Shown here piece by piece: positions 3,183-21,818 of a DNA stretch of 29,111 bases (the first letter of the stretch is position 1; each line of letters opens with the position of its first letter). The translations under genes and the position numbers were made by a program. The notes beneath the pieces were generated by a model. It saw only the letters and a program-made list of their open reading frames with translations. It was not told where the DNA came from and searched no databases. Source of the stretch: a virus; IMG/VR virus record IMGVR_UViG_3300025652_000363, positions 1 through 29,111 of that record. One strand, written 5' to 3'.

Positions 3183-3944
3183 TTATACCTTCTCTAATTT
3201 ATAGTTTGCGGTGTATAGCATAACCCCGTTGAGTTTTACTTCTTCATATCCCGATACATCGTGAAACATCTGCCCCCATAGTTCAGCCGTTCTTTTGCTA
3301 TCAAAAAGGGGTTTATCGTTTAAAAATGAACTGGGTTGTAACTCGTCTAAGATTATTGCTTTTAACTTCTCTAAAATCTCTTTGTCTTCGGGGCAATTTT
3401 TACATAGCTTTCCCTTCATCATCTCAACTAACCTATCCGTAAAATATCCTTCCACCGAGAAACCCCGAACGTCCTTTGCTTTTACCTTTTCCCAAATATC
3501 TGCGTTGTTTACTTTTACGGATAGCATCCATGTACCGATAGGGAGTTCAAAACCATATAAAGCAGCCTTATCTTTCTTCTTGTCTTCAATCAACCAAGAT
3601 TCCACTACCGTTACCCCATCTATTTTAGATTCGTGTTCTAAAGTCGATTCGTTGGTTCGTGCTTCTTGCATAAATAACTCCATCGCATGGCGTACCGTTT
3701 CCTTTGAAAAGAACACATCGTATTCTTCATCGTCTTCGTCTAACCGCATAATCAATTTGTCAGGGATCAATGCAGGACCAATCAGCATTCGCTTCTCATC
3801 ATCGGTAGCAAACTGCATCTTCTTGTCTTGGGTTGCACTTAGGTACACCCAATTTTGTTCAATAGCAGGAAACCTTACAAGGCTTACGGCTTCGATTCCA
3901 GTAAGCTCGTCTTCGTCAATTAACAACTCTACTTGTTTTCTCAT
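3183..3944 (-). CDS. XkdF-like prohead serine protease
   Basis: The product has 253 residues. The middle region matches my memory of the XkdF-like phage serine protease family: a His in TLEHESKI (His104), VVESW at 113-117, GTWMLSVKV at 137-145 and GFSVEG at 161-166 (Ser163 the likely nucleophile). It would cleave scaffold and capsid N-termini during head maturation. The last 70 residues contain CKNCPEDKEI and a stretch of no known role. It lies just upstream of the scaffold and capsid genes, which supports the role. Confidence 0.7.
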   Translation of the reverse strand: MRKQVELLIDEDELTGIEAVSLVRFPAIEQNWVYLSATQDKKMQFATDDEKRMLIGPALIPDKLIMRLDEDDEEYDVFFSKETVRHAMELFMQEARTNESTLEHESKIDGVTVVESWLIEDKKKDKAALYGFELPIGTWMLSVKVNNADIWEKVKAKDVRGFSVEGYFTDRLVEMMKGKLCKNCPEDKEILEKLKAIILDELQPSSFLNDKPLFDSKRTAELWGQMFHDVSGYEEVKLNGVMLYTANYKLEKV

Positions 3945-3977
3945 AATGGTAAAAATGTAAATTCTATTTGCGTTTAT

Positions 3978-5636
3978 TTATAGAGATGCCATCGCTTTTA
4001 ATTGAGCTGCTAAAGCACTTTCGTCGGCTAACTGACTTTGCACTACAAAGGCTTTAACGGGCGGCATAGCTTCTTGAACTTGGGTTACGCCTTCTATGTT
4101 AGGTGTTAGTCCTAATTGCATCCCCATACTACTACCCCCTGCCGATGATGTACCTACTGCACCCGATGATGCACCTGCTTGGTTCATTACCCCTTTTATT
4201 GAAGCAAACCCACCTAAGACGATAGCTAACATTTGTGCAGTTAATAAAGGTGACATAACTGGGGCAGCAGGACCAGTTGCGGCTGCTGCTATTTGTGCGC
4301 CTCTTATAGCCTCCGACATTGCGATAGCTTGGTTTACTAAGATTTGTGATATGGCCAACCTCTTTTGTCCTTCTTCGGTTTTTGCCATAGATTTTAGAGC
4401 GTCAAATCCTGCCGCTACTACCCCAAGTCTTGCAGCACGTACCGCTTTTGCAGTAGCTTCTTCTGCATCTTTAATTATCTTTAAATCTTTTAGACGTTGT
4501 AATTTAGCTACTTCTTCCGCTTTAGCCATTTCATTCAACCCATCCAAGAAGGTTTTCATCTCTGCGGCTTTTTCTGCTGCGGTTTGTTGGCGTATGATGT
4601 TTAACTTGTTATTCAAAGTCGTTTGCATCTCAGCCGATTCTGTTCTAATGTTTATTAAAGCAACTTCTAAGTCTACGAGCTTTTGCGTATCTTCTTCTAA
4701 ATTCTTGCTTAGTGCTAAATTAGCCTTTGCAATATCTCTTTCCTCAGTAGCTAACCTTTGACGTTCTGCCATTAAACGCCTTTCTTCGTCTATTGCTTTT
4801 TGTGCAAATTCTAACCTTCTTTCAAGTGTTTCATTTGTGTCTTCTGCTATTAAATTATATTCTTTAATCTTTGCTCTACCTTCGGCAAATTGTATTTGCA
4901 AAGACCTTTGTGCCTCTCTTAATTTAATAGAACGGTCTGCGAGTTTGGTAGCTGAATCAACTGCCTCATTCACCCCATCAATAAATTCACCGAGTACTGG
5001 AACTACATTTTCAACAATAGCACCTACCGTTTCAATGGCAACCCCCAATGGTGTAAGTTCCATAAATAAACCCTTTGCCCCTTGCGTGGCATCTGTTAAT
5101 GCACCTGAAAAGTCACCTTCAAATAACTTAACAAAAGCAGAACCCAATAACCCCACCGACTTTATCACCTCGTTAAACTTATCTACGAAGTATGTTTTAA
5201 TCGTACCCCATAGATCCTTTATAGCTTGTTCGGGTTCGGTAAATACCCATAGAATCTTTTCACCTAAATCAGATGCTACATCCGTTAATTTGGCAAAGAC
5301 TATCTTCACTCCTGCCATAGCAATCTCTAACTTCTCTGCACCCTTTTGGGTTTGGGTAAAGTAAGCAACCAAAGAACCCACCGCTACAACCAAAGCGCCA
5401 ATACCCGTAGAAATCATTACACCCCTAAAGGTCTTCATACCTACTATAGCAGACTTTACCCCATTCGATATTCCCGTAAAGGCAGTTAACGCCCCACCCG
5501 TCATCTTATCTAATGCACCCGAAGCCATATTAACGTTTCCGCTTATGTCTTGGGTTTTGTCATCTATTTTTGTCAGGTCAGAAGAAACCTTCTCCGTTCC
5601 TTTTATCGTTACTCCTACTTCTATTTTCTCAGCCAT
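3978..5636 (-). CDS. Tape measure protein
   Basis: The product has 552 residues. It has a hydrophobic segment near residues 70-95 (ISTGIGALVVAVGSLVAYF), a long charged coiled-coil region (about 230-400) rich in Glu, Lys, Ala and Arg, and a second apolar, Ala/Gly-rich segment near 440-485. This is the usual makeup of a tape measure protein, which sets tail length and enters the host envelope on infection. It is short for the family, suggesting a tail of roughly 80 nm if the common rule of about 1.5 angstrom per residue holds. The ATG overlaps the end of the 59-residue gene upstream. Confidence 0.75.
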   Translation of the reverse strand: MAEKIEVGVTIKGTEKVSSDLTKIDDKTQDISGNVNMASGALDKMTGGALTAFTGISNGVKSAIVGMKTFRGVMISTGIGALVVAVGSLVAYFTQTQKGAEKLEIAMAGVKIVFAKLTDVASDLGEKILWVFTEPEQAIKDLWGTIKTYFVDKFNEVIKSVGLLGSAFVKLFEGDFSGALTDATQGAKGLFMELTPLGVAIETVGAIVENVVPVLGEFIDGVNEAVDSATKLADRSIKLREAQRSLQIQFAEGRAKIKEYNLIAEDTNETLERRLEFAQKAIDEERRLMAERQRLATEERDIAKANLALSKNLEEDTQKLVDLEVALINIRTESAEMQTTLNNKLNIIRQQTAAEKAAEMKTFLDGLNEMAKAEEVAKLQRLKDLKIIKDAEEATAKAVRAARLGVVAAGFDALKSMAKTEEGQKRLAISQILVNQAIAMSEAIRGAQIAAAATGPAAPVMSPLLTAQMLAIVLGGFASIKGVMNQAGASSGAVGTSSAGGSSMGMQLGLTPNIEGVTQVQEAMPPVKAFVVQSQLADESALAAQLKAMASL

Positions 5637-20650: not shown

Positions 20651-21010
20651 ATGATAACAAACTTCGAAAGGGAAACCCACGAACTAAACCACTACGAACT
20701 ACATACGCTGTTGCCTATTGTCGTGCATGGTTTATCTACCAAATTAGGCAAAGGCAAAGCCATCACTAATAAGGATATTTGTAAAGCTCTAAAAGAAGGA
20801 GGGTGTAAGATAACCGATACCAGGCTAAGAAAGATTGTGCATCACATACGCACACAACACCTTGTGCCTTTGCTTATCGCTACGTCTAAAGGTTACTACA
20901 TAGCCACTAACAAAGACGAAGTAGAAAGCTACATACTTTCTTTATCTGAGCGCATCAACTCAATTAGTAGCGTTAAGTCGGCATTAATAAAACAACTATC
21001 TAATGCTTAG
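20651..21010 (+). CDS. Winged-helix-like protein
   Basis: The product has 119 residues, with HYELHTLLPIVVHGLSTKLG, AITNKDICKALKEGGCKITD and RLRKIVHHIRTQHLVPLLIA followed by TSKGYYIAT. This is a winged-helix-type layout that I recall from Bacteroidota phages, where it often lies just before a methyltransferase gene. It overlaps the methyltransferase start by eight bases. It may be a regulator or replication accessory protein. Confidence 0.65.
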   Translation: MITNFERETHELNHYELHTLLPIVVHGLSTKLGKGKAITNKDICKALKEGGCKITDTRLRKIVHHIRTQHLVPLLIATSKGYYIATNKDEVESYILSLSERINSISSVKSALIKQLSNA

Positions 21011-21818
21011 GCACGGATCACTATTTAGCGGAATAGGTGGGTTTGACCTGGCAGCCGAATGGATGGGGTGGGAAAACGTCTTTCATTGTGAGTACGATCC
21101 ATTCTGCCAAAAGATTCTTAAACACCACTTTCCAAATTCAAAACTATACAAAGATGTCAAAACCTTTAACGCATCAAACTACGCTGGAAGAATTGATATT
21201 ATCTCAGGAGGATTCCCATGTCAACCTTTTTCAAACGCAGGACTTAGAAAAGGAACGGAAGACGAACGCAACTTATGGGGCGAGATGCTTAGAGTCATTC
21301 GGGAAGTTTCCCCGCGCTACGTTGTGGGCGAAAACGTTCGCGGCTTACTTAATTGGTCAGGGGGAGTTCAGTTCGAGCAGGTGTGCGCTGACTTGGAAAA
21401 TGAAGGCTACGAAGTCACACCGTATTTACTTCCAGCTTGCGGTAAAAACGCACCCCACCGAAGGGATAGAATTTGGTTTGTTGCCTACCGTAACGAGCCA
21501 AGTACGGGAACGGACGTTAGAAGAATGTCAGGATCGTCAGAAGAAATACGGGGGAGAAAAGAGAGCTTTGTACCTCGACCACTTTGCAGCGATGGGGATG
21601 CTCCCGACACCATTAGCGAATCAAACGACTGGGAAAACTTCCCAACTCAACCCCCTCTTTGTGGAGGAAATGATGGGATTCCCAAAGAACTGGACGGCAT
21701 TACCTTTTCAAAGTGGCGAAAAGAAAGCATCAAAGCATACGGAAACGCGATAGTTCCACAAGTCGCACACGAAATCTTCAAAGCTATTCAGAAAATGGAA
21801 GATACTTTTGTACCTTAG
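21003..21818 (+). CDS. C5-cytosine DNA methyltransferase
   Basis: The product has 271 residues and looks complete. Motif I is LFSGIGGFD at 7-15, motif IV is GGFPCQPFS at 69-77 with catalytic Cys73, motif VI is ENVRG at 110-114, motif VIII is PHRRDRIWFV at 151-160, and motif X is YGNAIVPQV at 246-254. The target-recognition region between VIII and X is short (about 85 residues). It transfers a methyl group to cytosine C5, probably to hide phage DNA. Almost its whole length overlaps another frame (21154-21753) that also looks coding. Confidence 0.93.
   Translation: MLRHGSLFSGIGGFDLAAEWMGWENVFHCEYDPFCQKILKHHFPNSKLYKDVKTFNASNYAGRIDIISGGFPCQPFSNAGLRKGTEDERNLWGEMLRVIREVSPRYVVGENVRGLLNWSGGVQFEQVCADLENEGYEVTPYLLPACGKNAPHRRDRIWFVAYRNEPSTGTDVRRMSGSSEEIRGRKESFVPRPLCSDGDAPDTISESNDWENFPTQPPLCGGNDGIPKELDGITFSKWRKESIKAYGNAIVPQVAHEIFKAIQKMEDTFVP
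21154..21753 (+). CDS. Overlapping +1 frame protein within the methyltransferase gene
   Basis: A 199-residue frame from ATG at 21154 lies +1 to the methyltransferase; the frame is open from 21037 but that earlier ATG is less likely. It contains YGARCLESFGKFPRATLWAK, SSRCALTWKMKATKSHRIYF, TEGIEFGLLPTVTSQ, LPTPLANQTTGKTSQLNPLF and VEEMMGFPKNWTALPF. I recall nearly the same order of motifs (STRCYLTWK, LLPTP, LNPxFVExMMGFPxxWT) in proteins annotated beside or as phage methyltransferases. It may be a partner or specificity protein. No independent proof of expression is visible. Confidence 0.7.
   Translation: MSKPLTHQTTLEELILSQEDSHVNLFQTQDLEKERKTNATYGARCLESFGKFPRATLWAKTFAAYLIGQGEFSSSRCALTWKMKATKSHRIYFQLAVKTHPTEGIEFGLLPTVTSQVRERTLEECQDRQKKYGGEKRALYLDHFAAMGMLPTPLANQTTGKTSQLNPLFVEEMMGFPKNWTALPFQSGEKKASKHTETR

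Follow-up and report, generated by a model that had tools for sequence, protein, structure and literature searches.

The virus record IMGVR_UViG_3300025652_000363, analysed over its full length of 29,111 bases (hereafter the window), contains a C5-cytosine DNA methyltransferase (MTase) gene with a second gene nested in another frame of the same strand. The two products probably form one two-subunit enzyme, in which the product of the larger frame (frame A) provides the catalytic part and motif X, and that of the inner frame (frame B) provides target recognition and motif IX. Comparison of homologous sequences indicates that frame B is coding and under selection, that the recognition stretch of frame A is unconstrained, and that motif IX does not occur in both frames of the same locus. 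The window also encodes a portal protein, a tape-measure-like protein, an amidase and a ParB-like protein, which identifies it as a fragment of a tailed phage genome.

Frame A (21003-21818, plus strand) encodes the putative catalytic subunit of 271 aa, which matches PF00145 (9e-48) and phrog_363 (5e-73), with M.HhaI and M.HaeIII as the closest PDB profile matches. Motifs I, IV (PCQ), VI (ENV), VIII and X were identified in this order from the translation and from invariant alignment columns, in agreement with the C5-methyltransferase initially recognised in this frame. Motif IV (GGFPCQPFS; 21207-21233, plus strand) includes the catalytic Cys, and its columns are invariant in the frame A alignment. 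Motif X (YGNAIVPQVAHEIF; 21738-21779, plus strand), the first part of which is shared with the tail of frame B, was assigned from the translation and from an hhalign comparison with other MTases; in the in-frame actinophage enzymes, motif X is the only part to which the frame A C-terminus aligned. Neither pattern search nor profile alignment detected motif IX in the frame A chain of the window's family.

Frame B is located at +1 of frame A and, as originally noted, is free of stops from 21037 to 21753. In 130 non-redundant homologous loci, stops often occur upstream in the +1 frame, the first ATG is usually found about 130-190 nt into frame A, and the stop-free stretch, typically of about 190-340 codons, usually opens shortly 5' of this ATG. 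The conserved inner ATG corresponds to position 21154 of the window, and thus, judging from these homologues, the true frame B gene most likely extends from 21154 to 21753 (plus strand, 199 aa). The GTG at 21037, from which the gene had initially been drawn, is an unlikely start. No Shine-Dalgarno-like signal precedes the frame B start in the window's family.

Frame B of the window matches phrog_1008 (3.4e-16, best stretch residues 9-163), as do 54/54 diverse members of the frame-B family (best 6e-72), which means that this family has already been clustered from phage proteins. PHROG_1008 carries the title 'DNA methyltransferase'; its member protein lacks MTase catalytic motifs and represents the frame-B partner of an MTase. 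Profile searches of Pfam, NCBIfam and PDB identified no relatives of frame B, and four weak Hanta_nucleocap matches in Pfam were taken as chance. The separate database searches that had been proposed for the two translations thus succeeded with a Pfam family for frame A and, for frame B, with phrog_1008 alone. No function was recognised for the N-terminal half of frame B in Pfam and NCBIfam searches. A beta-hairpin is predicted in the ALTWKMKATKSHRIYFQLAVKT region (21385-21450, plus strand), opposite the part of frame A just before motif VIII; it contains W81, which is invariant across 135 sequences, and has a local AF2 pLDDT of 80-88 in an otherwise weak model. As AF2 models of frame B alone were weak (two runs, pTM 0.31-0.32) and a Foldseek search of the first model against the PDB returned nothing at E <= 0.001, no structural claim is made for frame B. 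Such a weak model of the lone chain might be expected if the subunit acquires its fold on the partner chain.

Both frames are present in 169/169 homologous loci, comprising 80 viral loci fetched with frame A alone, 80 fetched with frame B alone and nine from phage records. Frame B is at +1 of frame A in all of them except one mycobacteriophage locus with a split A gene (Mycobacterium phage Llama gp74/gp75; L008, 1489-2248), in which a frame change divides the MTase into two overlapping ORFs. The second half of A in this locus occupies the frame that B would use in the first half. A single locus (L062) among the 130 non-redundant ones has an interrupted frame B; disruption of B by stops in most homologous loci, which would have refuted the original prediction, was therefore not observed, and the frame is open in nearly all of them. 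Frame A also underlies frame B in 80/80 loci from bacterial genomes (mostly Bacteroidota) that were fetched with the B profile alone. As the MMGFPx(N/D/G)W motif was a condition of this B-only retrieval, these loci are selected for its presence, unlike the A-fetched loci. The K1G-type phages share the layout, with B open in 85/85 loci; 79 of these carry an MGFP-type motif in B, and none carries one in A. In the marine phage KM23-C739 (L005, 1393-2229), frame A is interrupted N-terminally and frame B is intact and separately annotated as 'putative cytosine-specific methyltransferase'.

Hundreds of phages and prophages carry the A/B pairing, of which databases usually list one gene only. Both frames are annotated in Paenibacillus phage Bloom (BLOOM_56/57), many phage records list A only, the record of Pseudomonas phage PMG1 lists only the ORF described as similar to Mte8-like protein, and one MTase gene is listed for the prophage locus of E. 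coli strain E21. Very long same-strand overlaps had been considered rare; in the window's MTase family they are the rule.

When the codons of frame A were shuffled among synonyms within each gene, 5.7 stops per locus were expected in the B stretch (127 loci), and the chance of B staying open had a median of 0 and a maximum of 6.5%; frame +2 of the same stretch contains 15.5 stops on average. Alignment scores between B proteins exceeded the similarity imposed by A, estimated from shuffled pairs, by z = 5-15, and this excess persists even where the A proteins of two phages are only about 40% alike. Furthermore, the ratio of changes at third to first codon positions of frame A falls from 4.9 before the ATG of B to 0.88 in the overlap and to 0.51 in the putative target-recognition stretch (21501-21617, plus strand, including the second LPTP of B), which identifies the fast position in the latter as the third position of B.

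Overlap-aware substitution counts were obtained from 44 disjoint pairs and also from a larger pair set. These counts are approximate, since transitions were given a fixed weight of 2.5 and only six-base contexts differing at no more than one site were used; the contrast between the frames is many-fold. Before the ATG of B, A NN/SN is 0.04 and B NN/NS 0.76 (0.42-1.47), and across motifs I-VIII the values are 0.08 and 0.24 (0.17-0.33), respectively (44 disjoint pairs). In the recognition stretch the order reverses, with A NN/SN at 1.01 (0.43-3.17) and B NN/NS at 0.08 (0.05-0.13), and in the motif IX region both are low (0.16 and 0.13). The rate of A-synonymous substitutions per 1000 weighted sites drops in the recognition stretch, from 51 to 2.8, and that of B-synonymous substitutions remains at 37.5. 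Frame A behaves as an unconstrained spacer, as if neutral, at the place where the recognition domain of an MTase is expected, and frame B is tightly conserved there. The same reversal occurs among closer pairs of proteobacterial K1G-type phages. The per-frame analysis of synonymous constraint that had been proposed thus revealed strong constraint on B, and the suspected overlapping gene pair is upheld, since conservation of B lies far above the shadow cast by A. Frame B is, on these comparative grounds, a protein-coding frame under purifying selection.

The C-terminus of frame B contains a motif-IX-like sequence, LNPxFVExMMGFPxxW (SQLNPLFVEEMMGFPKNWT; 21640-21696, plus strand), in which M174, G175, P177 and W180 are invariant in 135 sequences. 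The ArcusAngelus-type actinophage MTases carry a motif-IX-like sequence (FPEWMMGWPAGWV) in frame A, with motif X directly after it, and hhalign aligned the C-terminus of B to this in-frame region at 96.7%, compared with 0.2% for a reversed control. The profile match of B to the canonical motif IX, LTPRECxRLQGFPDW (LTPRECWRLQGFPDW), is weak (21.6%), and the firm link between B and motif IX therefore appears to run via the actinophage form and not the canonical form. By pattern-based assignment, 232 loci carry motif IX exclusively in B, 65 exclusively in A, none in both, and 33 in neither. The K1G loci, which were missed by the PCQ pattern, are not included in these numbers and were counted separately. 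Where motif IX is in A, the third codon position of A is fast in that region, and where it is in B, the first position of A is fast; this swap provides a natural control on which frame carries the function.

We hypothesize that the product of frame A acts as the catalytic subunit, contributing SAM binding, the PCQ catalytic loop and motifs VI, VIII and X. Frame B, translated from its own ATG at 21154, would yield a 199-aa subunit with the target-recognition stretch and the motif-IX helix that is missing in A, and the two chains may together form the equivalent of a single conventional MTase. Selection of the DNA target would then fall to the LPTP-bounded part of B, and methylation by the A-B enzyme could protect phage DNA from host restriction. 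In the absence of expression, binding or specificity data, the translation of B, the A-B complex, the B-determined specificity and the anti-restriction role of methylation are inferred. As the recognition stretch of A is neutral, A would have no recognition domain unless one is supplied by B, and the substitution pattern argues that recognition resides in B in this phage family. Of the roles originally considered for the second protein, that of a partner or specificity factor is favoured by the evidence, and nothing points to an anti-restriction protein.

M.EcoHK31I, an isoschizomer of M.EaeI, is a C5 MTase for YGGCCR composed of two polypeptides; the coding region of the smaller one lies within the gene for the larger one in a different frame, an organisation shared by M.EaeI. 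M.EcoHK31I is described in PMC3404938 as two polypeptides with motif IX only on the smaller one and with a recognition domain predicted in the large subunit; the title of Lee et al. (1995), cited there, gives an in vitro requirement for two proteins. Judged by sequence motifs, the window locus shares the placement of motifs I-VIII and X on the large chain and of motif IX on the small one. It also has a small polypeptide encoded in another frame inside the large gene. By analogy, this enzyme is a biochemical precedent for a two-subunit interpretation of the window locus. In contrast to the recognition domain predicted in its large subunit, it is frame B that is under constraint over the corresponding stretch in the window's family, and frame A is neutral there. 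Moreover, M.EcoHK31I is part of a restriction-modification system, whereas the surroundings of the MTase gene of the window showed no recognisable restriction enzyme. For an MTase of a Bacillus anthracis prophage, a specificity like that of M.EaeI or M.EagI has reportedly been predicted (PMC4722110), which fits an M.EaeI-type link without proving one.

Among the K1-type coliphages, ORF30 of K1G ('Mte8-like protein') is nested at +1 inside ORF31 (C-specific methylase) in the same way as in the window, and both are annotated; the 'Mte8-like protein' annotation gives neither a function nor a relation to the methylase, and the origin of its name could not be traced in the papers searched. In M.AquI, the catalytic and recognition parts of an MTase are likewise naturally divided between two chains (alpha and beta), but its beta subunit contains half of the recognition region together with motifs IX and X, whereas the window retains motif X in A and has nested frames. 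No earlier report of a phage-wide A/B overlap was found among open-licence papers, which does not prove novelty; what is new here is the breadth of the arrangement and the evidence that places recognition in B.

An out-of-frame product within a phage methylase gene is also known in the case of the ShiLan domain, an HNH endonuclease (PMC11855218). In contrast to this homing insertion, both frames of the window cover the MTase body and no insertion is present. Many ArcusAngelus-type MTase genes of actinophages (L280-L294) appear broken near the middle of A, with A ORFs of about 185-230 codons, which could reflect ShiLan-like insertions, real splits or sequencing errors.

Bacillota-type MTases, represented by Lactococcus phage CHPC148 and its relatives (L344-L401), possess a recognition domain as well as motifs IX and X within frame A. 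Even so, these complete-motif enzymes, together with L261, bear a +1 ORF of about 150 aa that is under constraint. This ORF spans motifs IV-VIII, ends near CSLSDILEENVxEKYFLS and is open against an expectation of 7.0 stops. The A-synonymous rate inside it is less than half of that outside, and a Shine-Dalgarno-like sequence precedes its start at a frequency of 0.59, compared with 0.38 in shuffles. A constrained +1 ORF in MTases that have their own motif IX means that supplying this motif cannot be the sole role of B, and the N-terminal part of B probably does more, such as stabilising A or performing a role of its own.

These shorter ORFs, and the lack of a recognised function for the N-terminal half of B, lend some support to the view that B is a real overlapping protein with an independent job, such as a regulator, an anti-restriction factor, a nuclease or a host-factor binder, instead of an MTase subunit. 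We consider this improbable though still viable, since B was never found without an MTase and carries the motif IX that is absent from A, the constrained frame at motif IX swaps between lineages, and the neutral recognition stretch would leave A incomplete. We favour a wider form of the two-subunit interpretation with somewhat less confidence than the assignment for the window itself: phage C5 MTases would commonly hold a recognition subunit in their own +1 frame, with the former recognition stretch of A persisting as a neutral spacer that serves B, motif IX having moved between the frames, and the N-terminal part of B conserved for an additional role, also in loci with a complete A.

A programmed frameshift joining the catalytic half of A to the C-terminal half of B, instead of or besides a free B, would restore the canonical motif order up to IX, since A could be read through motif VIII and then continue in B as in the in-frame actinophage enzymes. 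This appears very unlikely in the light of the conserved ATG of B and of the constraint on B over the whole IV-VIII overlap (NN/NS 0.24), which a late shift would not need. B also ends before motif X is complete, so that a second shift would be required. Finally, although A motifs determine some B residues, such as those facing motif VIII, and no B was seen in the absence of A, the notion of a shadow ORF that is open and similar only through the conservation and codon bias of A is rejected with near certainty by the stops and the far lower B similarity obtained in A-synonymous shuffles and by the collapse of the A-synonymous but not the B-synonymous rate in the recognition stretch, for which the region before the ATG of B provides a clean internal control.

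If the two-subunit interpretation holds, M.EcoHK31I, a single odd enzyme of 1995, would stand for a widespread gene architecture of phages and prophages, which annotation usually shrinks to one gene. The specificity determinant of many phage MTases would move to an overlooked protein, which would explain the difficulty of predicting phage MTase sites from the annotated gene. The loci would also constitute a very large and clean set for studying the evolution of two proteins in one stretch of DNA, including the frame swap of a motif.

Elsewhere in the window, a small phrog_2113 protein of unknown function (20651-21010, plus strand) overlaps the MTase start by 8 bases and could be co-translated with it. 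Three long plus-strand ORFs of 175-221 aa (3295-3960, 4096-4761 and 4837-5364) run antisense to genes of the minus strand, which in two cases is the tape-measure-like gene; they have possibly arisen by chance.
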